64,000 nt of DNA, taken from assembly GCF_001465595.2 (NCBI RefSeq), contig NZ_CP013481.2, forward strand, positions 2,976,001 to 3,040,000, in the 5' to 3' direction. A program made the position numbers and the translations under genes. This DNA comes from Pandoraea apista (GTDB lineage Bacteria; Pseudomonadota; Gammaproteobacteria; Burkholderiales; Burkholderiaceae). This document shows positions 7,159 through 22,958 of this stretch, piece by piece. The notes beneath the pieces were generated by a model. The model did no database searches. It worked only from the letters and a program-made list of their open reading frames with translations, and was not told where the DNA came from. Numbering within the stretch: position 1 is the stretch's first letter; each line of letters begins with the position of its first letter.

Positions 7159-8568
7159 TTACCCCTCCTGTCCCTGCGCATTCGATGCAGGCACTTCCGC
7201 CCGTTGGCGATACCACACGGCATAGATCGCCGACAGCGCCACGATAAACGGCACGCCGTACACCAGCGTCATGCGGAACTCGTCGGTGAAATACGTCGTG
7301 ACGAGTGTTGCCAGCATGAGCAGCGCCCCGGCAAGACTTGCGTACGGATAGCCCCACATGCGGAACGTGAGCGACTTCGCATCGTGCGCACGGCGGAAGT
7401 ACAAGTGGGTCACGAAGATCATCAGCCAAGTGAACATCGCCCCGAACATCGAGACGGACATCATCAGCGTGAACGACGCCTGCGGTGCGAGCACGTTCAG
7501 CGCCACGGCCAACGCAATGCCGATGGTCGACAGCATGAGCGCCGCGACCGGCACACCATTGCGGCTGACCTCGCCGAAGCGTCGCGGCGCGTAGCCGGCG
7601 CGAGACAGGCTGAACATCATGCGCGTCGTGATGTAAAGCTGGCTGTTCATCGCGGAGAGTGCCGCCACGAGAATCACCAGATTGATGACGCCTGCCGCAC
7701 CCGGGATGTGCGTGGCGGCCATTACCTTGACGAACGGGCTGCCGTCTTCGCCCGCCGAACTCCACGGCACGACGGCAAGCGTGAGCGCCAGCGTGAGCAG
7801 ATAGAAGAACACCAGCCGGAACATCGTCGCGCGGAAGGCACGCGTAATCGCGCGCTGCGGGTCCTGCGCCTCGCCCGCCGCCACCGCGATCATTTCGATG
7901 CTCAGATAGCTGAAGATCGACACGATGACCGCCACCCACATGCCCCACGCGCCCTTCGGGAAAAATCCGCCATGCGAGGTGTAGTTGGCGAGCCCGATGC
8001 CGCTGGCTTGCGGCGCACGGAAAACGACATACGCCCCAAGGATCAGGAACACGACGATGGCCACGATCTTGAGCATCGAGAACGCGTATTCCACCGCGCC
8101 GAACACCTTGACGCTAGCCGCATTGATGCCGATCAGTCCGGCCGAGAAGCCAACGATCCAATACCAGCCCGGCACCGCCGGGAACCAGTACTTCATGTAC
8201 ACAGCGATGGCCGTGACCTCAGTGCCGACGGCGAACACGATCGACGACCAGTACCCATAGCGCACCAGAAACCCCGCCAGCGGCCCGATGTAATGTTCGG
8301 CATAGGCACCGAACGATCCCGACGTCGGATGCGCGACCGTCATCTCCGCCAGACACCCCATCAGCAACAGCGCGATGGCGCCACCGATGGCGTAACTCAG
8401 CAACACGCTCGGTCCGGCAAAGCCGATGGCGAACGCACTGCCCAGAAAGAGGCCCGTGCCGATCGCCCCGCCAATGGCAATCATCGACAATTGCCCGCTG
8501 CTCAGGCCGCGATGCAGCCCTTTTTCTCGCTCGACAATGCTGTCGAAGCCCGGTTGTGTCGTACTCAA
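7159..8568 (-). CDS. Amino acid permease (APC superfamily, AAT type)
   Basis: Inner-membrane transporter of 469 residues with about 12 hydrophobic helices. The N-terminal RGLSSGQLSMIAIGGAIGTGLFLG is the substrate-binding first helix of the GabP/AnsP/ProY group, followed by a PTSGSFGAYAEHYIGPLAGF loop. The start codon appears to be TTG at 8566-8568, preceded by AGGAGA at a good distance. It is the last gene of the long leftward catabolic operon, 30 bp after the porin. The substrate may be an amino acid or amine released by, or co-transported with, the pathway; not proven. Confidence 0.9.
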   Translation of the reverse strand: MSTTQPGFDSIVEREKGLHRGLSSGQLSMIAIGGAIGTGLFLGSAFAIGFAGPSVLLSYAIGGAIALLLMGCLAEMTVAHPTSGSFGAYAEHYIGPLAGFLVRYGYWSSIVFAVGTEVTAIAVYMKYWFPAVPGWYWIVGFSAGLIGINAASVKVFGAVEYAFSMLKIVAIVVFLILGAYVVFRAPQASGIGLANYTSHGGFFPKGAWGMWVAVIVSIFSYLSIEMIAVAAGEAQDPQRAITRAFRATMFRLVFFYLLTLALTLAVVPWSSAGEDGSPFVKVMAATHIPGAAGVINLVILVAALSAMNSQLYITTRMMFSLSRAGYAPRRFGEVSRNGVPVAALMLSTIGIALAVALNVLAPQASFTLMMSVSMFGAMFTWLMIFVTHLYFRRAHDAKSLTFRMWGYPYASLAGALLMLATLVTTYFTDEFRMTLVYGVPFIVALSAIYAVWYRQRAEVPASNAQGQEG

Positions 8569-8598
8569 GGTTGTCTCCTGTAATGCCGAAAGTCGTGT

Positions 8599-9933
8599 TT
8601 AGAAACTGTGTTCGATGCCGAAGCCGATGCCCCGGTAGTGCGCGCCCGGCGGCGCATTGACGCCGTTGCCTATCGTCGGGCGCGGCGAAAAGCCGTAGCT
8701 GCCCCACACGCGGTTGATGACCTGGTAGTAGGCGAGATAGACGTCGGTGCGGCGCGAGAAGTCGTAGCGATAGCCAAGGTTGAGCTGCGTCGCGCCGAGG
8801 CCATCGGTGTTGCACACCGCGCCCCCCGTACGCGAGCACGCACCGTTCATCGCATAGCCGCCACCGAGCCAGACGGAATGCTGACCGCCGCCGAACCAGT
8901 GCTGGACCATCGCGTAAAACGCGTCGCGCTGGTATCGGTTCAGGTTGCCCGTGGTGCCGTCGTCGGTGCGGTAGGTCAGCCGATCCCACCCCGCGACCCA
9001 TTTGGTATGCGCATAAGTGAAGACAATCAGCACTTTGTGCGCGTCGTCGCGCGAGCCCGTGGCACGCGAGCCGGGATTGGACGGATTAGCCGAGGGCGGC
9101 GCGCCGAGCCACGCCAGCCCGAAGTAGTCCTTATGCATTTCGTACGCATAGCGCACGCGCAGCGGGCCGTTCAGATACTCCAGCCCGGCACCGAACACTT
9201 GCGGCGAAATGCTGCCTGCGGGCGTGGTCATGCCGCCCTGCGAGAGCGAATACGAGAGCCGCATGTGGAACCCCGCCCAGTCCGGTGACCAGTACTGAAG
9301 GCTGTTGCCCTGACGGCGGTTGAACGTGGCGTCGGCCGCGTTACCCACACGCCCCGACTGTGTCGTTGTGTTCGGCACATTGAAGCCGGGATTGCTCAGG
9401 ATCGTGCTCAGATCGCCGGTGTACGGATTTCTCACCGGCGAGCCGACCGAGAGCGTCGACCATTGATACGGCGTATCCCAGTTGCCGAGAAACGCCGTCC
9501 CGAACGGTCCGCTCAGCCCCACGTTCGAGTTGCGCCCTGCGATGGAACCGGTCGACTTGCCGTCGATCGACACGGGCGTCTCGATCTGCCAGATCGCCGC
9601 ATATCCGTCGCCAAGGTCCTCCTTGCCGCGCATGCCGAAGTACGAAATGCCCGACATCATGCGCGTGCCGCTCGCCGTCGGCGCGTTGATGGCGCCCGCC
9701 GGCGCCTGAGTCGGACGCGGCGCAGACGCCGGTACCTGTTGTGCGCTCACGCTGACCCAGTCTGTCATCGGCGTGAGGTGTCCATAGATTTGCACCTGCG
9801 CCTGCGATACCTCGCAAGCGCCCATGCCCAAGGCCATCGCCAGCAGGGTGCCGTGCATGCCGGCGCGAGGCCGCGTCGAACCGTGACGCAGGAAACCACG
9901 ACATGCCCCTCGATCCCGCAACGCGCCGCGCAT
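8599..9933 (-). CDS. Outer-membrane porin (Gram-negative OmpC-like, Porin_4)
   Basis: Beta-barrel porin of up to 444 residues. The mature part begins QVQIYGHLTP after a signal ending VSQAQ, and ends HYRGIGFGIEHSF with the usual C-terminal Phe. Internal patterns FGMRGKEDLGDGYAAIWQIE and GRNSNVGLSGPFGTAFLGNWDTPY are typical of Burkholderiales porins. The start is uncertain: the ATG at 9933 gives a long Arg-rich n-region, while an ATG at 9858 (419 residues) gives a more normal signal peptide; neither has a good ribosome site. It starts 6 bp after the DapA-family gene, so it belongs to the operon and probably admits the substrate. Confidence 0.88.
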   Translation of the reverse strand: MRGALRDRGACRGFLRHGSTRPRAGMHGTLLAMALGMGACEVSQAQVQIYGHLTPMTDWVSVSAQQVPASAPRPTQAPAGAINAPTASGTRMMSGISYFGMRGKEDLGDGYAAIWQIETPVSIDGKSTGSIAGRNSNVGLSGPFGTAFLGNWDTPYQWSTLSVGSPVRNPYTGDLSTILSNPGFNVPNTTTQSGRVGNAADATFNRRQGNSLQYWSPDWAGFHMRLSYSLSQGGMTTPAGSISPQVFGAGLEYLNGPLRVRYAYEMHKDYFGLAWLGAPPSANPSNPGSRATGSRDDAHKVLIVFTYAHTKWVAGWDRLTYRTDDGTTGNLNRYQRDAFYAMVQHWFGGGQHSVWLGGGYAMNGACSRTGGAVCNTDGLGATQLNLGYRYDFSRRTDVYLAYYQVINRVWGSYGFSPRPTIGNGVNAPPGAHYRGIGFGIEHSF

Positions 9934-9939
9934 GGTCGC

Positions 9940-10845
9940 TTAACCCGGTAACGCGAAACCGCAAGCGGCCAACGCCGCGTGCAGCCGCGCGTGTTGCTCG
10001 CTCGTCAGCGCACTGAGCGGCGGACGCAACTGCGCCCAAGCCCGGTCGTCGCGATGCGATGCCAGCACCGCCTTGAGCGCCGGAATCATGGGGAAGGATT
10101 GCACAATGGTGCGAACGGCATCGGCCTGTGCCTGAAGTGCGGCGCCGTCTGCGGACGACCACTCGCGGCACAACCGTCCGATCAACTGCGGATTGATGTT
10201 GACCGTCGCCGAAATACAGCCCTTCGCCCCCCTGGCGGACGCGCGCGACACGAGCGACTCCGATGCCGGGAAGATGCCGAAACCGGGGAAAGCATCGAGC
10301 ATCGCACTCAGGTTGTTCCAGTCGCCCGAACTATCCTTGATGCCGACGACCGTTTGCGGGAAGTCTCGAATCAAGCGCTCGATCACCGGCAATGTGATCG
10401 GCACGCCCGAGAGTGCGGGGATGTGATAGAGGTACAGCCGCAAACGGGTGTCACCGACCTGCTCGATCACCCGAGCGTAGTAGTCGTACAAACCGTCGTC
10501 GGCGATGCCTTTGTAGAAGAACGGCGGGAGCATGAGTACGCCGGCGCAGCCGCGTGCCACGGCGTGACGCGTGAGTGCGACTGTCTCGGTTAGCGAGCAG
10601 CAACCCGTGCCCGGCAGCATGCGGCGCACGTCGAGCCCATGCTCGACCAGATGATCGAGCAGTGCCATGCGTTCGCCGGCACCCAGCGAGTTTGCTTCGC
10701 TATTGGTCCCGAACGGGGCCAGGCCCACGCCGTGAGAGAGCAACCATTCGCAATGCGCGAGAAAACGGGGGGCATCCGGCGTCAGATCCGCGTGAAACGG
10801 CGTGACGACGGGCGCAAACGCCCCGGTCAATTCGTGATCGACCAT
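9940..10845 (-). CDS. DapA/NAL family aldolase or lyase
   Basis: TIM-barrel class I aldolase of 301 residues in the dihydrodipicolinate synthase / N-acetylneuraminate lyase family. The N-terminus has GAFAPVVTPFHADL. The catalytic Tyr is in LYLYHIPALSG and the Schiff-base Lys in VVGIKDSSGDW. The usual GTTGE loop is replaced by FGTNSEANSL, so it is not a housekeeping DapA. In this catabolic operon it more likely cleaves or forms a 2-oxo acid. Placement between an alpha/beta hydrolase and a porin supports a degradative role; the substrate is unknown. Confidence 0.88.
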   Translation of the reverse strand: MVDHELTGAFAPVVTPFHADLTPDAPRFLAHCEWLLSHGVGLAPFGTNSEANSLGAGERMALLDHLVEHGLDVRRMLPGTGCCSLTETVALTRHAVARGCAGVLMLPPFFYKGIADDGLYDYYARVIEQVGDTRLRLYLYHIPALSGVPITLPVIERLIRDFPQTVVGIKDSSGDWNNLSAMLDAFPGFGIFPASESLVSRASARGAKGCISATVNINPQLIGRLCREWSSADGAALQAQADAVRTIVQSFPMIPALKAVLASHRDDRAWAQLRPPLSALTSEQHARLHAALAACGFALPG

Positions 10846-10931
10846 GACAGTTCCTAAGAGGGAGAGAGAGATGAACGGCGCTGCCGGTGCCGAGCCTTGC
10901 GGCTCAGCGGCTCAGGCAGACGCGCACCGCA

Positions 10932-11876
10932 TCAGGGCGATGGGTTGATTTCGTGCAGGAATTGCAGGATTTCGCGGCCGAGCGAGTCGTCGCCCGAATC
11001 GATGTGCGCCACAACCGACGTATGGTTGTGGTCACGCACCTGACAGAAGCGCGGCGCGTGGCCGTCTCGTTGCGACAGCCGGTGACAGAACTCGAGCGCG
11101 TAGGTATCGAGATGGGGATTCTCGAACTCCGCAACCACGATCATGACGGGCACGGGCATGGCGTCGGCATGTGCCATTGGGGCGTCCGACGCGTGCCGCT
11201 CAGGGTTCTCGCCGTAGTACGCCACAACACCCGGTGCGTTCGGATTGTCGGGCAGCACATCTGCGCGCAAACGCGCACTGATCAGCACGGTGCCGGCCAC
11301 CTCTGGCTGCGCAGGCCGCACGCGTGGGTCGCAAAGATAGCTCGCAACGTGCGAGCCGCCCGCCGAATGACCGATCAGCAAAATGCGCGTCAGATCGGCG
11401 CCGCCCTCACCCGCGTATTCGCCGATATGCTCGCGCACCCATCGCATGGCAGCCCCCACATCTTGCGCGCCGCCCGGAAACGGGGCTTCGGGCGCCAGCC
11501 GATACTCCACGTTCACTGCCACACAGCCGTGACGCGCGAAGTATCGCGGCAAGTTGCCGTAAATCTGCGCGTTGGCGTTCATGTCGCCCCGCACGAACCC
11601 GCCGCCGTGCACGAACACGACGACCGGCGCCGGGGCGTGCCGCGTCGAATCGGGACGATAGACGTCAAGCCGATGCCGCGCGTGAGGTCCATAGGCCAGA
11701 TCGCGCACAACGGTATAGCCATCGCCCGGCATCTCGGCCAGCAGCGGCGTGTAGGTCTCGAGCACAACACGCCGGCCGGCGGCAATGTCGTCGGCCCAGC
11801 GCGGGCCGAGCGTGCGCATTTGCGCTCGTGCCGCCTGCCAGCCCGCCGTACTCGTCCGAAGGGTCTGCCCGCCCAT
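10932..11876 (-). CDS. Alpha/beta hydrolase (HSL / arylformamidase-like esterase)
   Basis: Serine hydrolase of 314 residues. The oxyanion-hole motif is HGGGF, the nucleophile elbow is GHSAGG and a C-terminal His lies in DHNHTSVV; an acidic residue near FENPHLD may complete the triad. The layout resembles hormone-sensitive-lipase and kynurenine-formamidase-like enzymes that open esters or amides of small aromatic compounds. Its ATG overlaps the ABC ATPase stop by one base within ATGA, so the two are co-translated. The context suggests hydrolysis of the imported compound or an intermediate. Confidence 0.87.
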   Translation of the reverse strand: MGGQTLRTSTAGWQAARAQMRTLGPRWADDIAAGRRVVLETYTPLLAEMPGDGYTVVRDLAYGPHARHRLDVYRPDSTRHAPAPVVVFVHGGGFVRGDMNANAQIYGNLPRYFARHGCVAVNVEYRLAPEAPFPGGAQDVGAAMRWVREHIGEYAGEGGADLTRILLIGHSAGGSHVASYLCDPRVRPAQPEVAGTVLISARLRADVLPDNPNAPGVVAYYGENPERHASDAPMAHADAMPVPVMIVVAEFENPHLDTYALEFCHRLSQRDGHAPRFCQVRDHNHTSVVAHIDSGDDSLGREILQFLHEINPSP

Positions 11877-12745
11877 CAGTAGACCCCCATCAACTGCGAG
11901 AGCTGCGCAATGTACCCGGCGTAACGCGGATGCTGCTTGATCGTCTGTGGCGAACGCGGTCTCGGCAGGTCGATGACGACTTCTTGCTGAATTTTCCCCG
12001 GCCGCGCCGACATCACGATCACCCTGTCGGAGAGGAACACGGCTTCCTCGATACTGTGCGTCACCAGCAACACTGTCTGCCGGTGCTCCTGCCAGATGCG
12101 CAGCAGTTCGACGTTCAGGTTGTCGCGCGTGAGCGCATCGAGCGCACCGAAGGGCTCGTCCATGAGCAGTACCTTCGGCTCGAGCGCCAGAATCTGACCG
12201 ATCGACGCGCGCTGGCGCATGCCGCCCGATAACTCATGCGGGTGATGATCGGCAAACTGTGCAAGTCCCAGCATGTCGAGCAGCGCCTGTACACGAGGCT
12301 CGCTCTTTTCCTTCGGAATCTTGCGCAGACGAGTGCCCAGCAGCAGGTTTTGCCGAACGGTGAGCCAGGGCAGCATATTGCTCGTCTGGAACACCACACC
12401 GATCTCGGGCACGGGACGCGCCACGCGCTGTCCGGCCACGCGCACCTCGCCGCCGTCGTGCGGCACCAGTCCCGCCACAATGCGCAGCAGTGTGCTCTTG
12501 CCGCAACCGCTCGCCCCGAGAATCGACACGAACTCGCGATCTGCGATCGAGAGCGACACGTCGTCCAGAATTCTCACGGGCGAGGCCTTGCGCTGCTTGG
12601 CGGCGAACGTCTTGTCGACGTGACGCACTTCGATCATGGCGCTTTGCGGCAGCACTGCCGTGGCCGGCGTCGCGGGCATTTCGTCGGTCTGCCCGGCGTG
12701 CCGCGCCGCGTGGAGTTGCGTTACGGTTTTCGTCACGGTACTCAT
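11876..12745 (-). CDS. ABC transporter ATP-binding protein (nitrate/sulfonate/taurine type)
   Basis: ATPase of 289 residues. Motifs in order: Walker A GASGCGKST, Q-loop VFQTSNMLPW, signature LSGGMRQR, Walker B VLLMDEPFGALD, and VTHSIEEA. The start at 12745 overlaps the permease stop by four bases, and its own TGA overlaps the hydrolase ATG. A roughly 35-residue leader precedes the ABC domain. It energises the second NMT1-type importer of this window, whose binding protein lies two genes upstream. A longer open frame upstream lies over the permease gene and is not used. Confidence 0.92.
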   Translation of the reverse strand: MSTVTKTVTQLHAARHAGQTDEMPATPATAVLPQSAMIEVRHVDKTFAAKQRKASPVRILDDVSLSIADREFVSILGASGCGKSTLLRIVAGLVPHDGGEVRVAGQRVARPVPEIGVVFQTSNMLPWLTVRQNLLLGTRLRKIPKEKSEPRVQALLDMLGLAQFADHHPHELSGGMRQRASIGQILALEPKVLLMDEPFGALDALTRDNLNVELLRIWQEHRQTVLLVTHSIEEAVFLSDRVIVMSARPGKIQQEVVIDLPRPRSPQTIKQHPRYAGYIAQLSQLMGVY

Positions 12746-13485
12746 ACGTTGATCCCTCGCCACCAGACAAAGCGCGCCAAACGTTCGATGACCCAGTAGA
12801 GCACCACGGCCAGGAGCGTCACCATGAGAATGGCGGCGAACATCACGTCGGTCCGTGCAGCCGCCGACGCGAACACGATCAGGTGCCCCAGCCCTTCTTC
12901 CGATCCAATGAACTCGCCAACGATGGCGCCGATCACTGCGAGCGGCATGGCAATCTTGAGTCCGTCGGCAAACGCCGGCAGCGCCGCCGGCAGGTACAGA
13001 CGCCAGAAGGTGTCCCACGGACTCGCGCCGAGCGCACGGAAGTGCTCGTCGAGATTGCGGGCAACGGAGGCGAGACCGCCCATCGTTGCCACCACCACCG
13101 GGAAAAACGCGAACAGGAAGGTCGAGGCCAGCTTCGAAGCAAAGCCGTACCCGAACCACACGATCATCAGCGGCGCAAGTGCGATCTTCGGCATGCTTTG
13201 CAATGCCGTGACAAGCGGATAAAGCGTGCGGCGGGCAAATGCGCTGTAGCTGATGACCACACCGATCACCAGACCACCCGCGACCGCCGCCACGAAGCCC
13301 GTCAGCACTTCGACCGTGGTGACCCAGGTGTCGGCGAGCATCTGAGGATGCACCTCCCACGCGGCGCGAAAGATCGCCGATGGCGGCGGCATCAGGTACG
13401 ACTGCACTTTGAAGTACGTGACGGCCATCTCCCACAGGGCGAGCAATACGCCCCAAAATACGATCGTCTGTGCGATGCGTTTCAT
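12742..13485 (-). CDS. ABC transporter permease (SsuC/TauC type)
   Basis: Inner-membrane permease of 247 residues with about six hydrophobic helices and the coupling-loop pattern FRALGASPWDTFWRLYLPAALPAFADGLK. The ATG at 13485 has GGAGGAG just upstream. It starts 27 bp after the VOC gene and overlaps the ATPase start, so the catabolic enzyme genes and transporter genes are interleaved in one transcript. Confidence 0.91.
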   Translation of the reverse strand: MKRIAQTIVFWGVLLALWEMAVTYFKVQSYLMPPPSAIFRAAWEVHPQMLADTWVTTVEVLTGFVAAVAGGLVIGVVISYSAFARRTLYPLVTALQSMPKIALAPLMIVWFGYGFASKLASTFLFAFFPVVVATMGGLASVARNLDEHFRALGASPWDTFWRLYLPAALPAFADGLKIAMPLAVIGAIVGEFIGSEEGLGHLIVFASAAARTDVMFAAILMVTLLAVVLYWVIERLARFVWWRGINV

Positions 13486-13512
13486 TCGATGTCTCCTCCG
13501 GAATATCGGGCG

Positions 13513-14070
13513 CTACGCGCGGCCGCCCGACTTGTCCTTGACCATTCCCGGCGGGGGCGGCACGACGAAGCGCTCAAAACGGAAGCGGTCGAAGCTCTCG
13601 ATGGAGCGCTCCCACACCTTCGCTTCGTAGGGGTGTTCGTCGTCGATCTGTGTCATCTCGCAATACAGTTCGACGTTGTTGCCGTCCGGGTCCTTGAACA
13701 CCAGGAAATAGTTAGCACCCGGCCCGTGACGCCCGATACCGCGCACGATCTCGACGTTGTGAGCGCGCAGCACGTCGACCGCCTGCTCCATCTCCTCGAC
13801 GCTGTCGACGAGATAGGAAAAGTGCTCCATGCCGGGACGGCCGTAGCGTGGCAGATCGTCGATGTCCGGCGAGTCCTTCGGAATCTGCGAAAGCGCCAGA
13901 TCGTGGTGATCGGAACCGGCGCGCAGGAACACCATCTGGTCGCCAATCCAGTCGGAAACCGTCAGGCCGAGCACTTCGGTATAGAACTTCGCCGACTTCT
14001 GGATATCGCGCACGACCAGTACCAGATGGCCGAGTCGCTTCGGGTTGAGCTTGGGTTTGGGGCTTGTCAT
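13513..14070 (-). CDS. VOC family protein, probable extradiol ring-cleavage dioxygenase
   Basis: Protein of 185 residues with paired beta-alpha-beta-beta-beta modules. Candidate metal ligands are His in RLGHLVLVV, His in GMEHFSYLV and Glu in NNVELYCEM, the 2-His-1-Glu pattern of catechol 2,3-dioxygenases. SDHHDLALSQ and HGPGANYFLVFKDPDGN also match small type I extradiol dioxygenases. The ATG at 14070 has AAGGAG seven bases upstream. It lies between the binding-protein and permease genes. With the FAH hydrolase of the same operon it suggests ring cleavage followed by hydrolysis; the substrate is not known. Confidence 0.85.
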   Translation of the reverse strand: MTSPKPKLNPKRLGHLVLVVRDIQKSAKFYTEVLGLTVSDWIGDQMVFLRAGSDHHDLALSQIPKDSPDIDDLPRYGRPGMEHFSYLVDSVEEMEQAVDVLRAHNVEIVRGIGRHGPGANYFLVFKDPDGNNVELYCEMTQIDDEHPYEAKVWERSIESFDRFRFERFVVPPPPGMVKDKSGGRA

Positions 14071-14104
14071 CTCGACTCCTTGCATTGCAGCTATTCGGGG
14101 ACCG

Positions 14105-15130
14105 TCACTCGACGAACTGATTGGTGTAGATATCGGTAGCCTTGAGCGTGGGCGCAAGATTGAAGGCATCGCGCACGAACTTCGCGGTGGACTCCATGCG
14201 CGGCACCGGCAACCAGCCCGGCTTATGCCCTTGCGTCTCCCGATCGGTCTCCAGCACCCCGATCTGACGGATCTGTTCGACCATGACCTGCTTGTCGAGC
14301 ATGGGGTACTGCGAGGCGATTACACCGGCCGATTCCTCCGGATGCTCGCGCATCCACGCATAGCCCCGATACGTCGCCTGCACGAAGCGGCGCACGACGT
14401 CGGGCTTTTGCTCGATCATCTTCTCGGTCGTGACGATGCCGTTGCCAACCATGTCCAGCCCGAAGTCGCGATAGCGCAGCGAACCGATCTCGCGGCCCTG
14501 CTTGGCGGCAAGTGACTTGAGCACCGGCAGGTTCGCGCCTTCCCAGCACTCAGTCAGGTCCACGCGGCCTTGCAGGAACGACGGATTGATGGTCGACGGA
14601 TCGAGTCGCAGCAGCTTGACCGACGTTGGCGGCAAACCATTGGCCTTGAGCCAGGCGGGCACGATGTTCTGCAACGGCGACGCCCCGCCGCCGCCCATCG
14701 ACAGGCCCTTGAGATCGGCGGGTTTCGCGATGGTCCTGCCCGGCTTGGCGAGATAGCAGATAGCGCCCGGCCAGACCGCGTTGATCGATCCGACCATTTT
14801 CGTCTTGCCGCCTTGCGCCCGATTGAGCATGACGCTGATCGGATCGCCGTAGCCGAATTCGAACAGGCCCTGATCGACTTCATTGACGGTGCGCTGCCCG
14901 CCGTGGCCGACGATGGCCGAGACCTCCAGTCCGGCATCGCGGTAATAGCCCTTGTTGATGGCGACGAGTACGCCGCCGGTACTGCCCTGCGGCAGCCATG
15001 AGAGGTTGAACTTCACTTTCTCCTGCGCGGCGACAGGCGTCGCCCACAGGGCACTCGCGCCCACAGCTCCGATCGCCCCGGCACATGCGAGCGCTTTCCA
15101 CCAGCGCGTTGCCCACTGCCACTGCTGCAT
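14105..15130 (-). CDS. ABC transporter solute-binding protein (NMT1/THI5-like)
   Basis: Periplasmic binding protein of 341 residues. The signal peptide runs from an unusual Trp-rich n-region (MQQWQWATRWWK) to a cleavage site near PVAAQE. The mature start VKFNLSWLPQGSTGGVLVAINKGYYRDAGLEV is typical of NMT1-like proteins. AGGAGG precedes the ATG at 15130. It lies 37 bp after the FAH gene and 34 bp before the VOC gene. The ligand is presumably the substrate of the flanking enzymes. Confidence 0.9.
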   Translation of the reverse strand: MQQWQWATRWWKALACAGAIGAVGASALWATPVAAQEKVKFNLSWLPQGSTGGVLVAINKGYYRDAGLEVSAIVGHGGQRTVNEVDQGLFEFGYGDPISVMLNRAQGGKTKMVGSINAVWPGAICYLAKPGRTIAKPADLKGLSMGGGGASPLQNIVPAWLKANGLPPTSVKLLRLDPSTINPSFLQGRVDLTECWEGANLPVLKSLAAKQGREIGSLRYRDFGLDMVGNGIVTTEKMIEQKPDVVRRFVQATYRGYAWMREHPEESAGVIASQYPMLDKQVMVEQIRQIGVLETDRETQGHKPGWLPVPRMESTAKFVRDAFNLAPTLKATDIYTNQFVE

Positions 15131-15167
15131 TGCTGCCTCCTCCTGACCGCCCCATGAGCGGCCTTTG

Positions 15168-16118
15168 TTATGTGCGCTGTGCCACGACGCGGTTCTCAAT
15201 GGCGCCAATGCCCTCGATACCCGCCACCATCACGTCACCCGCCTTGAGATACACGCCACGTCCCATGCCCACGCCGGTCGGCGTGCCCGTGGCGATCAGA
15301 TCGCCGGGCTTGAGCGTGAGAATGCCGGACAGGTAGGCGATCTGCTCCGCAATGTTGAAGATCATCCCTGCCGTCGTGTCGTCCTGCATCGTTTCGCCGT
15401 TCACCGACAGCGTCATGCGCAGGTTCTGGGGATCGCGAATGACGTCGCGCGGCACAAACCACGGCCCCAGAGGAGCGAAGGTATCGAAACTCTTGCCGCG
15501 AAACCAGTCGTGCGTGAACGGATAGTCGGTGCGGCGATTCAGGTCGCGCGCACTCACGTCGTTGATGACCGTATAGCCAGCGATCCACTCATGTGCCTGT
15601 TCCACCGGAATATGGCGGCCGGGACGGCCAATCACCACCGCCAGCTCCACCTCCCAATCGACCCGCTCGGCATGCGGGGGCAACACCACATCGGTGCCGG
15701 TCGCGGTCACGCTCGTTTCGGCTTTCATGAACATGTACGGCGAACTCTCGCTGCGCGGCGCGAGCTTGGTGCCCATTTCGGCCGCGTGTTCGTAGTAGTT
15801 CGACGCGGTCGCGAAGATGCGTCCCGGCTGGTATGGCACGCACAGGCGGTAATCGGCGCTTGCCAACGCCCCCACTTTGGCCGGCACACCGGCTTCCAGC
15901 GCCTGATGCACTGCGGCGCTCAAGGCTTCGCCATGGACATACCAGTCCGAGAGCAACGCCGTGAGATCTTGCGCCGCGAGCCAACCTTCATCGGCGCCCA
16001 TGTGGCGCAGCACAGCTTCCATATCGTACAGACGGCCATGTTGCACCAGTGCCGTGCGACGTTGTGCGCCTGCTCCCGGCGCCAGCGATTCATAAGTTGC
16101 GATACCAAACCAGGCCAC
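15168..16118 (-). CDS. Fumarylacetoacetate hydrolase family protein
   Basis: Hydrolase or decarboxylase of 316 residues. The catalytic domain has YEHAAEMGTK, the metal-binding Glu pair in DWEVELAVVIG and Asp in NDVSARDLNRR, then GDLIATGTPTGVGMG. FAH relatives split acylpyruvates or decarboxylate ring-fission products. I prefer the GTG at 16116-16118, which has AAGGAGG five bases upstream and gives the family-like start MAWFGIATYES. An ATG at 16166 adds 16 lysine/glutamate-rich residues but has no ribosome site. It is the first gene of the nine-gene leftward operon. Confidence 0.88.
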   Translation of the reverse strand: MAWFGIATYESLAPGAGAQRRTALVQHGRLYDMEAVLRHMGADEGWLAAQDLTALLSDWYVHGEALSAAVHQALEAGVPAKVGALASADYRLCVPYQPGRIFATASNYYEHAAEMGTKLAPRSESSPYMFMKAETSVTATGTDVVLPPHAERVDWEVELAVVIGRPGRHIPVEQAHEWIAGYTVINDVSARDLNRRTDYPFTHDWFRGKSFDTFAPLGPWFVPRDVIRDPQNLRMTLSVNGETMQDDTTAGMIFNIAEQIAYLSGILTLKPGDLIATGTPTGVGMGRGVYLKAGDVMVAGIEGIGAIENRVVAQRT

Positions 16119-16183
16119 ACCTTCCTCCTTGTCTTCCTTCGGGAAACCGACGGCGATCTCACGCATCGGTTGTCTTTTTGATT

Positions 16184-16223
16184 GCTATGTGAAGATACAA
16201 TACATAGCATATGTATACATAGC
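16184..16223. promoter_or_regulatory. Operator region, probable GntR binding site
   Basis: AT-rich divergent promoter between the FAH operon and the dehydrogenase gene. It contains the perfect palindrome TATGTATACATA at 16210-16221. GCTATGT at 16184-16190 is matched by inverted copies ACATAGC at 16202-16208 and 16217-16223. The same ATGTATAC core recurs before the second porin, the second VOC gene and the GntR gene, so it is a likely operator for that regulator. Confidence 0.7.
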
Positions 16224-16277
16224 AACTGGTTTGTATTTTATTTTTCAATCCTATCCATCGACACGATTAAGGCCCTC

Positions 16278-17270
16278 ATGAACGACGCTCCGTTGCTTCT
16301 CAACCTGATTCCGCTAGAACCGATAGCCCGCGCCCAACTGCTCGCGGCAGGCCTTCGTCTGCACGATGTCGACGCGCGTCATTCACGCCTCGACGACCTC
16401 GGCAACGCCGACATAGCCTCTGCCGTGCGGGTCGTACTGACCAACGGCACCACCGGTTTGAGCGCGGTTCAAATGGACGCGCTACCGCAACTCGAACTCG
16501 TCTGCGCTTTTGGCGCGGGCTACGAGAACATTGACGTCGCGGCCGCCACGGCACGCGGCATCGCTGTCGCGCACGCACCGAACACCAATGGCGAGACCGT
16601 GGCCGATCACGCGCTTGCGCTCATGCTTGCGAGCGCGCGCGGGCTCGTCGTGCTCGACCGCGCCGTGAAGGCTGGCGGCTGGGCCAAGTACCGTGCACCG
16701 CGCCCAACGCTGCATGGCGCGCAGCTCGGTATCGTCGGCCTGGGCAACATCGGGCGGGCCATCGCAACACGGGCCGAAGGCTTCGGCATGGCGATCGGCT
16801 ATCACACGCGCACGGCGCGCAGCGACTGCCGCTGGCGCCATTTCAACGACGTGCTCGCATTGGCCGACGCCAGCGACTTCCTCGTACTCGCCTGCCCCGG
16901 CGGCCCGGCGACGCATCATCTCGTGAACGCCGACGTGCTGGCGCGGCTCGGCGCTAACGGCTTCCTCGTCAACGTCGCGCGGGGCAGTGTCGTGGATACG
17001 ACGGCATTGATCGAGGCGCTGTGCGACGGCGTGATTGCAGGGGCTGCGCTCGACGTCTTCGAACACGAACCGGAAGTGCCGTCGGCGCTGCGCATGCTCG
17101 AGAACGTAGTGCTCACGCCGCATGTCTCCGGCCGCTCGCCTGCCGCTCTGCAAGCGCAAATCGATCTGCTGCTCGCCAATATCCGCGCGCATCTGTCGGG
17201 CGTGGCCTTGCCCGCTGCCGTCAATACCATCGCCGCCCCCGGTGCCACCGAGCCGCGTAGCGAGCGCTAA
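16278..17270 (+). CDS. D-isomer-specific 2-hydroxyacid dehydrogenase
   Basis: NAD(P)-dependent dehydrogenase of 330 residues, similar to glyoxylate/hydroxypyruvate reductases. The cofactor motif is GIVGLGNIGRA. The catalytic Arg is in NVARGSVVD, Glu in FEHEPEVPS and His in LTPHVSG. The ATG at 16278 follows AAGG; an open frame further upstream runs through the AT-rich operator and is not used. It is divergent from the FAH operon with the shared operator between them. It may reduce a 2-oxo acid made by the pathway, such as glyoxylate or a pyruvate derivative. Confidence 0.9.
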   Translation: MNDAPLLLNLIPLEPIARAQLLAAGLRLHDVDARHSRLDDLGNADIASAVRVVLTNGTTGLSAVQMDALPQLELVCAFGAGYENIDVAAATARGIAVAHAPNTNGETVADHALALMLASARGLVVLDRAVKAGGWAKYRAPRPTLHGAQLGIVGLGNIGRAIATRAEGFGMAIGYHTRTARSDCRWRHFNDVLALADASDFLVLACPGGPATHHLVNADVLARLGANGFLVNVARGSVVDTTALIEALCDGVIAGAALDVFEHEPEVPSALRMLENVVLTPHVSGRSPAALQAQIDLLLANIRAHLSGVALPAAVNTIAAPGATEPRSER

Positions 17271-17278
17271 AGCGTTTG

Positions 17279-17325
17279 GAAAAAAAGAAGCGGGCAACCG
17301 GGAGACCATCGGAGGTTGCCCGCTT
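17279..17325 (-). terminator. Rho-independent terminator of the LVIVD-repeat gene
   Basis: Perfect 12-bp stem AAGCGGGCAACC / GGTTGCCCGCTT at 17288-17299 and 17314-17325 with a 14-base loop. On the minus strand it is followed by a T-rich tract (17279-17287). It lies about 90 bases after the stop of the leftward gene ending at 17413, and just after the end of the rightward dehydrogenase gene. Confidence 0.8.
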
Positions 17326-17412
17326 CGAACACTTCACGCTTTGGAGGCCCTGTGAAGTCGTCGGCGGCGACGGCACGACGTGTCGCGCCGCCCTGTCGCA
17401 ATGCCGCGAGGC

Positions 17413-19215
17413 TTACCGTGCCGGCCAGGGTTTCGCCGGGGCGCCCATCACCGGCTCACCGAGCAGCGGGCTCGACAGCGCGTAGGCGCCGTTCTCGGTG
17501 AAGGCCCACATGATGTTGCGGTCGTACTCGGTGTACATCGCGAACACGCCCTTGCCCAGCGTGTAGACGGGCAGTTCGGTCTCATCGGCCAGCCCCGGCA
17601 CGAAGTAGCCCGCAATACGCGGCTTGGCCGGGTCCTTCACGTCGAAAATCTGCACACCGGCGTTGTAGAACGAATACGGCACAATGCCCTGACGCCACGT
17701 GCCCGGTTGACCGATGGAATTCGAGCGCTTCGGCCCGTAGTTACCGCCACGCTGGCAGAAGCTCGTGAACGGCGCGCCTTCGGGAATTTCGGGCTCGGGG
17801 AACTTCGCTGCCACCTTCATCTTCGCGGGGTTGCGCGCGTCGACGACGAAGATGTCTTTATACGGCTCATAGCAGTCGCGGTTCATCGGATAACCGCTGG
17901 TGAGCACGTAACCCGTGCGCTCGTACTGGCTCACATCGGCGTTGTCGTACTCGGTCCCCGCGAAACTCGGTGCGGTGTTCACATTGCCCAACACCTTCGG
18001 ATGCACCGGATCGGACAAGTCGAACGACCACAGGCCCAGACCGCCCATCGCGCCGAAGCCCACTTTGCCGCCCTGCTCCAGCGGCTTGGGCAGGAAGATC
18101 GGCATGCGCGAGCCCATCCACGACGTACGGTTGCCCGCGCGCGGGTTCTGCAAATAGGCCTGCTCATGCTCCGCGTTGCCGAGAATCTGCCCCGGTACCG
18201 CAATCTGCGAGAGGAATTTCGGATTGGCCGGGTCCGACATGTCCCACACCTGATAGCCTGGCGAGTAGAGATAGTTCGGGTATTCGGTGAGTGCGTAGCT
18301 GTCGTCCGGCGCGGCAGAGAGAATCATGTACTTGCCGCCGTAGAACTCCGGCGAATCGAGCGAACCCGAGCCCTGTTGCTGGCCCACCGGGGCGCTCGGG
18401 TGCTTGTAGTCGGTCGTGCGCGTGGCGATCAGCTTCCAGTCGGAGGGCAGCGGTCCATCCATCTCGAAGACCTTGAAACCCTTGAGCGCGTTGTAGTTTC
18501 GCTGCGCCGCCACCTTGTCGGGTTGCTTCGACTTATCCGTCATGAGCCCATAGCGGCCGATTTCGAACGACGCCACCAGAATCGGCTTGCCCAGCTTCTT
18601 GTTCCACACGATGGTGGCGCCACCCAGATAATCCTGCACGTTGTTCGGGTCGAACTTCTCGCTCGATCCTTTCGGCCCCCAGACGCCCCCCTTCGAATAC
18701 ACAACCTTGCCGTTGGCCGGATCGGTCACGTCCATGATGCGCAGGTAGTCACGGTCATGAATGTAGAGATAACGCCGGCCATTGAAGTCTGCGATGTTGT
18801 TCCAGGCGTGGAACGGCGAATCGACACCGGGGTAGAACGCCAGCACCTTCACGTTCTTCGTATAGCTCTTCTTGTCCCACGACGTCATCTCGCCGGGGAA
18901 GCGCTGACCGGTGTGCACCTCTGGCGTGGCTTTCGGCCAGATGAATTTACCTGTCGCCGGGTCCATGCCGTAGTCGACACCGGGCTTGAGCGGCTTGGGT
19001 TCCCGGTCCGGCGTGAGGCGCAGCCAGCCGGCCAAATAAGGGTCCTTGACGTTTGGCGTGCCGGGCGTGCCTGCGGGCTGCGCGTCGGACGGTGCCGCAG
19101 CGGGCGCGGCCGGTGCGCTTTCCGGCGCCGACGCGTGAGCCGCGAGCGTCATCGTGAGCGCCGCGAGTACTGCCGTGGCAGTCAACGAAACGCCGAGTGT
19201 CTGCTTGCGAAACAT
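17413..19215 (-). CDS. Secreted LVIVD-repeat (beta-propeller-like) protein
   Basis: Exported protein of 600 residues. The N-terminal signal MFRKQTLGVSLTATAVLAALTMTLAAHA is followed by an Ala/Pro-rich linker. The rest holds repeated blocks of the type LRIMDVTDPANGKVV, QVWDMSDPANPKFLSQI, LWSFDLSDPVHPKVLG and QIFDVKDPAKPRIAG, which are LVIVD repeats expected to form a propeller. AAGGAGG precedes the ATG. No catalytic residues can be named. The porin upstream carries the pathway operator, so this protein may act on or bind the growth substrate in the periplasm; that is inference. Confidence 0.8.
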   Translation of the reverse strand: MFRKQTLGVSLTATAVLAALTMTLAAHASAPESAPAAPAAAPSDAQPAGTPGTPNVKDPYLAGWLRLTPDREPKPLKPGVDYGMDPATGKFIWPKATPEVHTGQRFPGEMTSWDKKSYTKNVKVLAFYPGVDSPFHAWNNIADFNGRRYLYIHDRDYLRIMDVTDPANGKVVYSKGGVWGPKGSSEKFDPNNVQDYLGGATIVWNKKLGKPILVASFEIGRYGLMTDKSKQPDKVAAQRNYNALKGFKVFEMDGPLPSDWKLIATRTTDYKHPSAPVGQQQGSGSLDSPEFYGGKYMILSAAPDDSYALTEYPNYLYSPGYQVWDMSDPANPKFLSQIAVPGQILGNAEHEQAYLQNPRAGNRTSWMGSRMPIFLPKPLEQGGKVGFGAMGGLGLWSFDLSDPVHPKVLGNVNTAPSFAGTEYDNADVSQYERTGYVLTSGYPMNRDCYEPYKDIFVVDARNPAKMKVAAKFPEPEIPEGAPFTSFCQRGGNYGPKRSNSIGQPGTWRQGIVPYSFYNAGVQIFDVKDPAKPRIAGYFVPGLADETELPVYTLGKGVFAMYTEYDRNIMWAFTENGAYALSSPLLGEPVMGAPAKPWPAR

Positions 19216-19319
19216 GTCTTCCTCCTTCGTCTCAAAAGTTCTCTCGCCAGCGCCTCTCCGACTTCCGGCAGTGCTGGCGACGTAATGTGTGGATTCAGTA
19301 CGGATTCAGATGGCGCCGA

Positions 19320-20369
19320 TCAGAACGCGTGACGAATGCCAAGCTGCACACCCGAGGGGTTCTGCGTTCCCGTCGGGGTGACCTGGAACGTCACCGGGTA
19401 ATGCACCGTGGTGTCGTTGCTGTGTTGAACACGGGCATACGTTGCGTACAGGGTGGTGCGCTTGGACAAGCCGTACATGTAGCCGACGACGAAGCCGTTG
19501 GCATTCGACAGCGCCTTGTTGTCGTCGTCCTGACGGTGAACGAAGCTGGCGTAGAAGCGGTGGCGGTCGGTCAGTGCGTAGCGCACGCCCGCCTGAACGT
19601 CCCACCCGCGCACGTTGAACGCGACATAGGGGGGATAAGCGTAATAGCCGTTGTACGTGTGGTAGATCAGGGTCGGCTCAACATCGCCGAATTTGTAGGT
19701 CGCCGCGAAGTAGTTGTCACGCGAGGACCGGATCTGGCTCGACGAGAAGATGTCGCGCGTATATTGCAACTCGCTTACGGCCCCCAGGAAGATGCCGCCA
19801 TTGCGATATTCGAGGCCGGCAGAGTAGAAGCGCCCGGAGCGGGTGCCGTCGCCCACGCCGGTGGTCGCCATGAAGCGCCCCATCAGCCCGTTCCAGCGCG
19901 GCGTGTTGTACTGAATCGAGTTATCGACGCGATACGAGGCGTAGAAGAACTCCATGTTGTTGACCATACTGAAGTCGGCCGCCCAGCTCGGGTCGGCGTA
20001 CCCTGCGATCCAGTACGATGGCGTGAACTGTCGGCCCAGCGAGAACTCGCCCCACGGTCCTTTCAATCCCACGAACGATTGACGCGCCTGCGTCGACTGC
20101 GTGCCGTTATTCGCCGAGAACATCGGCTCATAGGTGAAGAACGCGCGGTTGCCGCCACCCAGTTCTTCGAAACCGCTCAGATTGAAGCGAGAGTTGTTCA
20201 GGCCGCCGCTCGACATTCTCGTCACTTTGCCGCCGTTCGCCCCCGATCCCCACAACTGCTCCATGTTCAGGTCCACGAACCCCGAGAGCGTTACGCCCCC
20301 GGACGATTGCGCGTAAGCACCGCCTTGCATTGCGCCCAGTAGCAATGCACACACCACTCGCTTCTTCAT
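19320..20369 (-). CDS. Outer-membrane porin (Gram-negative OmpC-like)
   Basis: Trimeric-type porin of 349 residues. The signal MKKRVVCALLLGAMQGGAYAQ is followed by SSGGVTLSGFVDLNMEQ, and the internal pattern SRFNLSGFEELGGGNRAFFTYEPMF and QSFVGLKGPWGEFSLGRQF is family-typical. It ends GVQLGIRHAF with the C-terminal Phe. AGGAGA precedes the ATG at 20369. Two copies of the ATGTATAC/TACATAGC-type operator lie 70-105 bases upstream. The gene stands about 100 bases upstream of the LVIVD-repeat gene and is probably transcribed with it. Confidence 0.92.
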   Translation of the reverse strand: MKKRVVCALLLGAMQGGAYAQSSGGVTLSGFVDLNMEQLWGSGANGGKVTRMSSGGLNNSRFNLSGFEELGGGNRAFFTYEPMFSANNGTQSTQARQSFVGLKGPWGEFSLGRQFTPSYWIAGYADPSWAADFSMVNNMEFFYASYRVDNSIQYNTPRWNGLMGRFMATTGVGDGTRSGRFYSAGLEYRNGGIFLGAVSELQYTRDIFSSSQIRSSRDNYFAATYKFGDVEPTLIYHTYNGYYAYPPYVAFNVRGWDVQAGVRYALTDRHRFYASFVHRQDDDNKALSNANGFVVGYMYGLSKRTTLYATYARVQHSNDTTVHYPVTFQVTPTGTQNPSGVQLGIRHAF

Positions 20370-20439
20370 GCTGTCTCCTGAGATTTCTCGTTTTTTATTT
20401 GCGGCGCTCCCGACCGGATGTCTGCCGCTCGCCCGTTGT

Positions 20440-20474
20440 ATGTATACAATCTTTACAATGATTATACATAGCAA
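20440..20474 (-). promoter_or_regulatory. Operator sites upstream of the second porin
   Basis: ATGTATACAAT at 20440-20450 and ATTATACATAGCAA at 20461-20474. The first matches the site before the GntR gene exactly over 11 bases. The second shares TACATAGCAA with the dehydrogenase/FAH promoter. Probable GntR operators. Confidence 0.65.
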
Positions 20475-20624
20475 AGAAATTGAATTTCTACCGCTATTTG
20501 CTTATACAAACGGGCGATTTTTTTATAGCGGGTAACCCCTGATACGCGATGGCCGCCGCCGGTTGGCATGACCGGCGGGGTAAAAAGGCTGACGGACAAT
20601 CGCGGCGATCGCCGCGACGCGAGA

Positions 20625-21092
20625 TCAAAGTCCTGTGCGATCGGCCTGCAATCCCTCATGGCGCAGCTTCGGAGCGTTGTCCGTGCCGGAACCGTCCTTC
20701 GATGCACCGCCCCAGCCGTGGGCCGTCACGTCGAAGATCACACCGTTCGGGTCGAAGAACTTCACTTCGTAAAAGATGTTGCTCTTCACCGGCACTTCGC
20801 CCATGTAGTAGCGGCCGCCCGCGGCTTCGATCTTTTCGCGCGTGGCTTGAACGTCCTCGACCCAGATGCCGATGTGATGCAATCCCACGTACTCGCGGCC
20901 ACGATCCCCCGCCGCTTCGTCGTTCTTGTAGTTGAGCAACGCCAGATTGATGACGCCATCCGAGAGATAGACGCCCCGGGCGAGCGACGAATCCGTTTCC
21001 CCCACTTTCTTGAAGTCGAACGCCTGCATGTAGAACTCGGCCGCTTTCCAGGGATCGGGTACGGAAAGCGCAATGTGACGCAGTTTGGCCAT
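20625..21092 (-). CDS. VOC family protein (glyoxalase/dioxygenase-like)
   Basis: Protein of 155 residues with the VOC fold: MAKLRHIALSVPDPWKAAEFYMQAFDF at the start, GLHHIGIWVEDVQATREKIEAAGG in the second half and FYEVKFFDPNGVIFDV near the end. Candidate metal ligands are His6, the His in GLHHIG and Glu in FYEVKF. AAGGAG lies ten bases before the ATG at 21092. It is divergent from the GntR gene and probably part of its regulon. It could be a second ring-cleavage enzyme, an isomerase or a lyase. Confidence 0.85.
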   Translation of the reverse strand: MAKLRHIALSVPDPWKAAEFYMQAFDFKKVGETDSSLARGVYLSDGVINLALLNYKNDEAAGDRGREYVGLHHIGIWVEDVQATREKIEAAGGRYYMGEVPVKSNIFYEVKFFDPNGVIFDVTAHGWGGASKDGSGTDNAPKLRHEGLQADRTGL

Positions 21093-21153
21093 GATGAAAT
21101 GTCTCCTTCGGATTGAGATATCAGCTCGTGCCGGAACCTCCGGCAGAGGCTTT

Positions 21154-21164
21154 ATGTATACTAT
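21154..21164 (-). promoter_or_regulatory. Operator upstream of the VOC gene
   Basis: ATGTATACTAT, one mismatch to the ATGTATACAAT site repeated in this regulon, 62 bases before the VOC start codon. Confidence 0.55.
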
Positions 21165-21174
21165 CTCAGCATAT

Positions 21175-21203
21175 TGCATTCAAAAACGTATTTTTTGAAT
21201 GCA
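21175..21203. repeat. Perfect 12-bp inverted repeat in a divergent promoter
   Basis: TGCATTCAAAAA at 21175-21186 is inverted at 21192-21203 with a 5-base spacer. It lies between the VOC and GntR genes, next to but distinct from the ATGTATAC operators. It may bind a second regulator or form a hairpin in a transcript. Confidence 0.6.
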
Positions 21204-21295
21204 TGCAACAACACCGAAGGCCATTTCCGTCAGATGCATGGCGCCGAATGCACCGTCCAGCCACAAGTCTCTGAAAAAATACCCGTATAATCCCC

Positions 21296-21306
21296 ATGTA
21301 TACAAT
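21296..21306 (+). promoter_or_regulatory. Operator upstream of the GntR gene
   Basis: ATGTATACAAT located 40 bases before the GntR start codon, identical to the site before the second porin. Suggests autoregulation. Confidence 0.6.
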
Positions 21307-21345
21307 CCAATCAAAAGACGCATCCACGGAGCGAGATAGATAAGC

Positions 21346-21999
21346 ATGGCTGAAACCATTGCCGCACGAATCTGCCGGGTGTTGACGGGCGAGATCATCG
21401 ACGGACGCCTGCCGCCGGGGCAGAAGCTGGAAGAAGTCGCACTGGCCGAGCGCTTCAAGGCCTCGCGCACGCCGATTCGCGAGGCGCTGCGCGAACTCAA
21501 CGCACGCGGACTCATTGAACTCACGCCGCACAAAGGGGGTGTTGTCGCGAGCATCAGCGTCGACGATCTCTCCGACATGCTTGAAGCCATGTGCGAACTC
21601 GACGCCCTGTGTTGTCGCCTGAGTGCCCAACGTATGAGCGCGATGCAGAAGAAGCAGCTCGAGATGATTCACATCCAGAGCAAGCAATGCATGGATGCAG
21701 GCGACGAAGCAGGCTATCTTGCGCTGAACCGCGAGTTCCATCAGTTGCTCAGCGCAGGAACGCAAAACAAAACGCTGATGGCGCTCATCGACAGTCATCG
21801 CGACCGTCTGGCGCCCTTCCGCGCGGCGCAGTCCGACGTTGAAGAACGCTTCTCCGTATCGTTCGACGAGCATGAGCGCGTTGTCGAGGCCGTGCTGGCG
21901 GCCGACGCCGAAGCTGCCTACAACGCCATGCGCAGTCACACGGCGCGCCTGAGTATCCACGTACTCGAACGCCTGCAACACAGCCGCAAGCTCGGCTGA
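21346..21999 (+). CDS. GntR family regulator with FCD ligand domain
   Basis: Transcription factor of 217 residues. The N-terminal winged helix reads GEIIDGRLPPGQKLEEVALAERFKASRTPIREALRELNARGLIEL (residues about 13-57). The C-terminal FCD domain carries metal or ligand His residues in EFHQLLSAG, DSHRDRL and RSHTARL, as in FadR/VanR relatives. ATGTATAC operators before its own gene and before the catabolic genes suggest that it represses the 7-21 kb regulon and is released by a pathway acid. The ATG has only a distant GGAGCGAG upstream. Confidence 0.92.
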   Translation: MAETIAARICRVLTGEIIDGRLPPGQKLEEVALAERFKASRTPIREALRELNARGLIELTPHKGGVVASISVDDLSDMLEAMCELDALCCRLSAQRMSAMQKKQLEMIHIQSKQCMDAGDEAGYLALNREFHQLLSAGTQNKTLMALIDSHRDRLAPFRAAQSDVEERFSVSFDEHERVVEAVLAADAEAAYNAMRSHTARLSIHVLERLQHSRKLG

Positions 22000-22851: not shown

Positions 22852-22958
22852 TCCACGCCGGGCTGCGATCCGTCTCCTGCGCAACGCTGCAATGCAGGGT
22901 GCCGGATCGCAGCAACGGTTCGCAGCGATATTACGACGACCCACGGCAAGGAACGCCC

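Follow-up and report, generated by a model that had tools for sequence, protein, structure and literature searches.

The window analysed here, a stretch of 64,000 nucleotides (C1:2976001-3040000) of the 5.57 Mb genome of Pandoraea apista, contains between positions 7159 and 21999 a cluster of 14 genes that encode a GntR/FCD regulator, transport proteins and a set of putative catabolic enzymes. The sequence-only reading of this DNA had described the cluster as one GntR regulon for the uptake and breakdown of an acid to which it gave no name. The families were assigned from Pfam and NCBIfam profile scores against the cut-offs of the models. The genes, with corrected starts, and the four places where a putative regulatory site recurs (given without strand) are the following, in positions of the window:

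7159-8568, minus strand: AAperm, amino acid permease of the APC family (Pfam AA_permease, 330.6 bits), last gene of a nine-gene run
8599-9933, minus strand: porinA, Porin_4 (Pfam)
9940-10845, minus strand: DHDPS-family aldolase or lyase (Pfam DHDPS; TIGR00674, 110.2 bits, and TIGR02313, HpaI-NOT-DapA, 109.1 bits, both below cut-off)
10932-11876, minus strand: alpha/beta hydrolase, esterase-like (profile matches to BD-FAE / Abhydrolase_3)
11876-12745, minus strand: ATPase of an ABC importer (Pfam)
12742-13485, minus strand: permease of the ABC importer (Pfam)
13513-14085, minus strand: VOC1, one-domain enzyme resembling type I extradiol dioxygenases (profiles and alignment)
14105-15130, minus strand: periplasmic binding protein of the NMT1/SsuA family (profile matches)
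15168-16166, minus strand: FAH-family protein (Pfam FAA_hydrolase, 257 bits), first gene of the nine-gene run
16278-17270, plus strand: D-2-hydroxyacid dehydrogenase (Pfam)
17413-19215, minus strand: LVIVD-like protein, predicted beta-propeller (Pfam LVIVD just under cut-off; structure model)
19320-20369, minus strand: porinB, Porin_4, upstream of the LVIVD gene (Pfam)
20625-21092, minus strand: VOC2, glyoxalase/dioxygenase superfamily (profile matches)
21346-21999, plus strand: GntR/FCD regulator (Pfam FCD, 85.7 bits; GntR, 56.7 bits)
16212-16219: site 1, TGTATACA, in the intergenic region from which the FAH run and the dehydrogenase gene diverge
20441-20448: site 2, TGTATACA, before porinB and downstream of a promoter-like TAGAAA-18-TATAAT (20490-20461, minus strand)
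21155-21162: site 3, TGTATACT, before VOC2
21297-21304: site 4, TGTATACA, before gntR, 5 bases past a TATAAT read from the sequence at 21286-21291

The profiles upheld the earlier assignments of the two porins, the NMT1 importer, the two VOC proteins, the FAH protein, the alpha/beta hydrolase, the DHDPS-family enzyme, the 2-hydroxyacid dehydrogenase and the GntR regulator. The LVIVD assignment fell narrowly short, with 19.3 bits to Pfam PF08309 against a gathering cut-off of 20.2, and the amino acid permease, which lies within the range of that reading, had gone unnamed in its text. The nine genes from FAH to AAperm share the minus strand and either overlap slightly or are separated by no more than 86 bases. 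Both the helix-turn-helix and the FCD domain of the GntR protein exceed their Pfam cut-offs, and no NCBIfam model reached its cut-off for this protein. The cluster probably forms five transcription units; promoter-like matches (2 in the region vs. 3.4 in shuffles) and terminator-like matches (7 vs. 12.0) were not above shuffles, and thus they neither show nor exclude the breaks between these units.

A repeated palindrome and its conservation

It had been noticed from the sequence that a core recurs before the FAH and dehydrogenase genes, the second porin gene, the second VOC gene and gntR, and a motif scan with shuffles confirmed all four places. The 8-mer ATGTATAC produced five strand matches there (16211-16218 on the plus strand, 16213-16220 on the minus strand, 20440-20447, 21154-21161, and 21296-21303), while 100 dinucleotide shuffles of the window yielded 0.26 on average (standard deviation 0.50, largest value 2). 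The whole genome contains 19 strand matches (17 places) vs. 18 for the reversed control, i.e., no genome-wide excess, and thus the signal is the clustering in the window. A chance recurrence of the 8-mer was ruled out by the window shuffles together with the conservation of the site and the counts across loci described below. Since the FAH run and the divergent dehydrogenase gene have one site between them, and porinB-LVIVD, VOC2 and gntR are each preceded by one, the four together may govern all 14 genes.

A wider regulon was not adopted, given that 12 of the 13 other genomic places of ATGTATAC fall within mechanically predicted open reading frames, although reading of the sequence suggests an intergenic position for two of them (C1:19984 and C1:1769780). 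The surrounding sequence was read at three of the places outside the window and the neighbours at two. Two places were left out of the regulon count, namely C1:1769780, which lies about 9.6 kb from the gene for 3-hydroxyanthranilate 3,4-dioxygenase (3HAO), and C1:4019458, inside a predicted open reading frame related to the NMT1 protein. The regulator may have additional targets elsewhere in the genome, including sites with a mismatch.

The core TGTATACA is invariant at the FAH/dehydrogenase, porinB and GntR promoters in 19 of 19 Pandoraea sequences, i.e., the window and 18 further loci, and the VOC2 site reads TGTATACT in all 19. Every one of the 18 further loci has exactly three copies of TGTATACA plus the VOC2 variant, at the same promoters. 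Alignments of the three intergenic regions from the 19 sequences, with a mean conservation of 0.903, 0.834 and 0.788, show no variation in the 8 core bases of any of the four sites. The members of Pandoraea are close relatives, and therefore other genera provide the stronger test.

To this end, the set comprised 97 loci, 18 with the Pandoraea gene order and 79 others, which we have divided by their GntR protein: 45 loci (18 Pandoraea and 27 others) encode one with at least 56% identity, five encode one with 42-47% identity, and 47 have none in the fetched DNA. All 27 loci outside the Pandoraea order whose GntR has 56-64% identity carry at least one TGTATACA, and none of their 58 copies lies in aligned coding sequence, which covers only the genes that match the reference set used. 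The site is thus present in 45 of the 45 loci with a GntR of at least 56% identity, not all of them independent: within the 27, L049 and L076 represent one and the same contig of Pandoraea terrae, and two Burkholderia arboris strains account for L090 and L130. In both sets with such a GntR, TGTATACA is the commonest of the 8-bp palindromes of its base composition, with 54 copies in the 18 Pandoraea loci, likewise outside aligned coding sequence, besides those 58. It stands before module genes in reshuffled clusters of Ralstonia, Paraburkholderia, Burkholderia, Collimonas, Cupriavidus, Achromobacter and Trinickia and, despite the differing gene order, the mapped sites precede FAH, the hydrolase or VOC2 gene, porinB and gntR, as well as the permease gene in one locus and a porin gene in three. 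The five loci with the more distant GntR (42-47%) contain no copy.

These sequence comparisons strongly support the part of the earlier claim that concerns one GntR regulon, with conserved sites at the right promoters, and suggest that the GntR protein would bind to them. The observation that weighs against it is that 12 of the 47 loci without a GntR in the fetched DNA also hold TGTATACA, 25 copies in all, e.g., before porinB in L085, a locus with neither VOC1 nor FAH. Such loci would be expected if another regulator bound the site or if GntR governed only some of the units. We consider this very improbable, because the site precedes gntR itself in 18 of 18 Pandoraea loci and is present in every locus with one of the closer GntR proteins, being absent from the loci with the distant ones. 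Moreover, VOC1 or FAH is found in seven of the 12, and a GntR may sit beyond the fetched DNA; the five with neither gene still count against a single regulon.

Enzyme families and kynurenine gene neighbourhoods

In an alignment of VOC1 with homoprotocatechuate 2,3-dioxygenase, the His of RLGH, the His of MEHF, the Glu of VELY and the GRHG segment match; we take the two His and the Glu to have the 2-His-1-Glu ligand roles in the latter enzyme. VOC1 stays below the cut-offs of the named models, i.e., HpaD (78.9 bits, cut-off 321.4), catechol 2,3-dioxygenase (71.8, cut-off 320.2) and BphC (50.2, cut-off 366.45). The FAH protein groups with HpaG-like and diketo-acid hydrolases, its relatives in PDB being HpaG-type enzymes and L-2,4-diketo-3-deoxyrhamnonate hydrolase, and its score to the HpaG model (186.7 bits) is below cut-off. 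A further match, of 219.1 bits, is to the model of 2,4-didehydro-3-deoxy-L-rhamnonate hydrolase (cut-off 500), and a sugar-acid diketo pathway was set aside because it has no place for an extradiol-type dioxygenase. The alpha/beta hydrolase resembles esterases of the HSL type.

The LVIVD-like protein has, by eye, a signal-peptide-like N-terminus. Its structure model (mean pLDDT 86.1, residues 1-50 below 50) predicts a beta-propeller whose top Foldseek match is PDB 5hrm, the haloalkylphosphorus hydrolase (phosphotriesterase) of Sphingobium sp. TCM1, at 14% identity. In a second look 5hrm was not among the 50 matches listed, many of which are WD40 propellers, and a profile search against the sequences of solved structures yielded nothing beyond partial matches of low score. 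Similarity of fold is no evidence of function, and the fold matches of this model do not tell what the protein does.

Using the LVIVD protein as bait we have fetched 78 loci with flanks of up to 10 kb and, after excluding 12 Pandoraea rows, 66 were compared with identity thresholds that we set ourselves. Its recurrent neighbours, grouped and identified from representatives, include, above the model cut-offs, kynureninase (330.6 bits, cut-off 246.4), 3HAO (251.8, cut-off 145.95), 2-hydroxymuconic semialdehyde dehydrogenase, 4-hydroxy-2-oxovalerate aldolase and acylating acetaldehyde dehydrogenase, and, below them, relatives of 2-keto-4-pentenoate hydratase and of RidA; an amidohydrolase neighbour is termed ACMSD-like from its context. 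At least one of the three core genes (kynU, 3HAO or the ACMSD-like gene) occurs in 35 of the 66 loci, VOC1 or FAH in 29, both groups in 11 (three of them from Bowmanella) and neither in 13, among which L062 has other module parts and L125 a kynU relative just below threshold.

Apart from the 18 Pandoraea loci, 22 hold a relative of AAperm (P. terrae L076 and, with a match of 22%, L125 are counted). Sixteen of these 22 have it on the strand of kynU and no more than 600 bp from that gene, nine of the 16 relatives having 78-84% identity. Outside the Pandoraea set, porinB and LVIVD relatives adjoin each other in 40 of 79 loci. To reduce the bias of the bait, the loci outside Pandoraea that had been collected with VOC1 and not with LVIVD were counted as well, and kynurenine core genes were present in three of these eight (L129, L134 and L145). 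In L145, which has no LVIVD in the fetched DNA, the genes for FAH, VOC1, the binding protein and the ABC importer form a group with kynU and ACMSD on one flank and 3HAO and the lower pathway on the other, at a distance of about 17 kb at most. A plasmid of Diaphorobacter HDW4B holds the module enzymes, LVIVD, kynU, 3HAO and an amidohydrolase within about 32 kb, a binding protein of the tripartite type replacing the NMT1 importer, and a Shinella plasmid has LVIVD together with kynU and 3HAO. Two annotated relatives of the module carry genes of the RidA family and of malonic semialdehyde reductase (269.5 bits vs. a cut-off of 152 for the Ensifer reductase); the Ensifer module also has a GST, whose match to maleylacetoacetate isomerase is below cut-off (62.9 vs. 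171.05 bits). Our reading of these arrangements is that kynurenine genes and VOC1/FAH modules often travel together, sharing LVIVD, porin and permease, and that in Pandoraea these accessories bear the GntR site.

A paralogous module is present in the same genome (L143, about C1:4000480-4008864), with GntR of 42%, VOC1 of 57-58% and FAH of 49-50% identity. It further holds VOC2, NMT1, the ABC permease and ATPase, a porin, another alpha/beta hydrolase, and a DHDPS-family relative at 27%. As a separate observation, its FAH gene is preceded by a CACATATATGTG palindrome.

Candidate pathway and competing readings

We propose, with a probability of about 0.5, that the cluster is a GntR/FCD-controlled module for the uptake and ring fission of a hydroxylated aromatic compound of the kynurenine branch, or of a compound met with it. 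The GntR protein would repress gntR as well as four further transcription units through the TGTATACA sites near their promoters, and would release them when a carboxylated aromatic inducer binds to the FCD domain. The substrate would enter by way of the two porins, the NMT1-type ABC importer and the amino acid permease, VOC1 would open the ring, and FAH, the alpha/beta hydrolase, the DHDPS-family enzyme, the 2-hydroxyacid dehydrogenase and VOC2 would convert the ring-fission product to central metabolites, e.g., pyruvate. A possible order is fission of a ring of the o-aminophenol or hydroquinone type, loss of an enamine, hydrolysis of an acylpyruvate and an aldol cleavage. In this scheme we infer the binding of GntR, the repression (rather than activation), the transcription units, the inducer, the substrate and the order of the reactions. 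Gene neighbourhood narrows the acid of the sequence-only reading towards the kynurenine branch or a co-occurring compound.

A more specific version of this proposal, which we offer tentatively and regard as rather doubtful, is that the cluster provides a second, so far undescribed route for opening kynurenine-branch rings, VOC1 acting on a hydroxylated kynurenine or hydroxyquinoline acid (e.g., 3-hydroxykynurenine or xanthurenate), the FAH-type hydrolase and the DapA-type aldolase finishing the breakdown, and the propeller and the porin handling the substrate outside the cytoplasm. If this were true, genes would be assigned to the ring-fission steps on kynurenate-type acids, for which we know of none.

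Several findings speak against a kynurenine-branch substrate. The window has neither kynureninase nor 3HAO, whose genes lie far off in this genome (kynU at C1:1603147 and 3HAO at C1:1779378), and the genes for tryptophan dioxygenase and arylformamidase are also outside the window. Eighteen of the 29 module-bearing LVIVD loci have none of the three core genes in the fetched DNA, and the same is true of five of the eight loci outside Pandoraea that were collected with VOC1 (L050, L130, L135, L136 and L146). On a single plasmid of Ensifer sp. PDNC004, about 140-150 kb separate the module from LVIVD and kynU, and in the 20 kb taken for the paralogous module there is no TGTATACA site and no match to LVIVD or the dehydrogenase. 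Besides, the use of LVIVD as bait for the 66 loci favours the context of LVIVD itself. Finally, no ring hydroxylase was seen among the module genes, and thus the substrate would need to arrive already hydroxylated.

The loci without core genes, the distant Ensifer module and the LVIVD-free paralogue are what one would expect if the regulon were real and its compound unrelated to kynurenine, the porin, LVIVD and permease being general aromatic-uptake parts of several pathways. We hold this to be quite unlikely, since VOC1 and FAH themselves stand among kynurenine genes in L145, L129 and L134, and VOC1 or FAH does so in the 11 LVIVD loci that have both groups. The regulon might also serve a catecholic phenylpropanoid or phenyl-hydroxy acid (e.g., a caffeoyl ester or 3,4-dihydroxyphenyllactate) through a meta pathway like that of homoprotocatechuate, in which ester cleavage falls to the hydrolase and oxidation of the hydroxy acid to the dehydrogenase, with VOC1 in the place of HpaD, FAH in that of HpaG and the DHDPS-family enzyme in that of HpaI. 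The scores to the HpaD, HpaG and TIGR02313 models, all below cut-off, and the likeness of the hydrolase to HSL-type esterases agree with this alternative. It seems unlikely to us because it leaves unexplained the membership of LVIVD and permease relatives in kynurenine clusters elsewhere, as well as the RidA gene of the related modules.

The cluster was compared with the closest known systems. The bacterial meta pathway from kynurenine via 3-hydroxyanthranilate consists of kynU, 3HAO, ACMSD, a semialdehyde dehydrogenase, a RidA-type deaminase, a hydratase and an aldolase, and a Burkholderia version of it is reportedly described. Relatives of LVIVD, porinB and AAperm occur in such clusters of many bacteria, and VOC1 and FAH are among such genes in some loci; however, the window holds none of the diagnostic enzymes, and fission would be performed by a VOC-fold enzyme instead of 3HAO. 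The 4-hydroxyphenylacetate/homoprotocatechuate (hpa) pathway shares the resemblance of the dioxygenase, FAH and DHDPS-family proteins to HpaD, HpaG and the TIGR02313 aldolase, whereas those matches are sub-threshold, no aldehyde dehydrogenase or hydroxylase was seen in the module, and the module adds LVIVD, the ABC importer and GntR control. With CsiR, NanR and the Burkholderia phnR model the regulator has in common the GntR helix-turn-helix, the FCD domain and a palindromic site by its own promoter. FadR differs in spacing, its consensus being GT-N3-AC, while the site here is GT-N2-AC.

The cluster is named in none of the titles and abstract openings listed in literature searches on LVIVD, on the breakdown of kynurenate, xanthurenate, 3-hydroxykynurenine and 3-hydroxyanthranilate, on kynurenine in connection with Pandoraea or 2-aminomuconate, and on the haloalkylphosphorus hydrolase propeller, a scope that leaves subscription papers mostly outside. 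Within these searches we have found no earlier description of this pathway; the kind of system is already known. Kynurenines are host signalling molecules, and to our knowledge the bacterial consumption of the products of this branch is poorly mapped. A putative 14-gene regulon with a clear site and a shuffled module in at least seven other named genera is directly testable, as it involves one regulator, one dioxygenase and few substrates.

Distribution and neighbouring genes

A GntR orthologue with 93-100% identity was found in 18 of the 31 other genomes of the genus searched, and one of 64% in another (G015). Eighteen of the 20 fetched loci share the Pandoraea gene order, among them L033, which ends inside the hydrolase gene at the end of its contig. 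LVIVD proteins of 94-97% identity come from Pandoraea records. Strong VOC1 matches (E ≤ 1e-30) are rare: two of the 398 genomes in the phylum sample have one, as do three of the 300 in the order sample, the genome of P. apista being counted in both. Pandoraea terrae L076 has two side-by-side copies of LVIVD, one at 10001-11791 and one starting near 12140, with 80% and 45% identity to that of the window, respectively, and a TGTATACA at 15233 before the permease gene.

The 3HAO region of the P. apista genome (L151, C1:1772405-1781976) contains genes for an ACMSD-like protein, a semialdehyde dehydrogenase, an ABC importer that by eye is of the branched-chain type, and an alpha/beta hydrolase. On a conjugative plasmid of Phaeobacter inhibens (L131), an LVIVD relative is accompanied by an aspartate dehydrogenase and a DHDPS-family gene, about 6.5 kb from repABC. 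The place at C1:19984 (position 984 of L153) is a perfect ATGTATACAT near a stretch of TTATCCACA-type boxes that we presume to resemble a replication origin. Beyond gntR in the window, two adjoining genes (22207-23483) presumably belong to the AidA/PixA inclusion-body family, and an amidohydrolase gene together with one for a double-cupin protein, which we take to resemble ureidoglycine aminohydrolase (23722-25993), probably form a separate unit.

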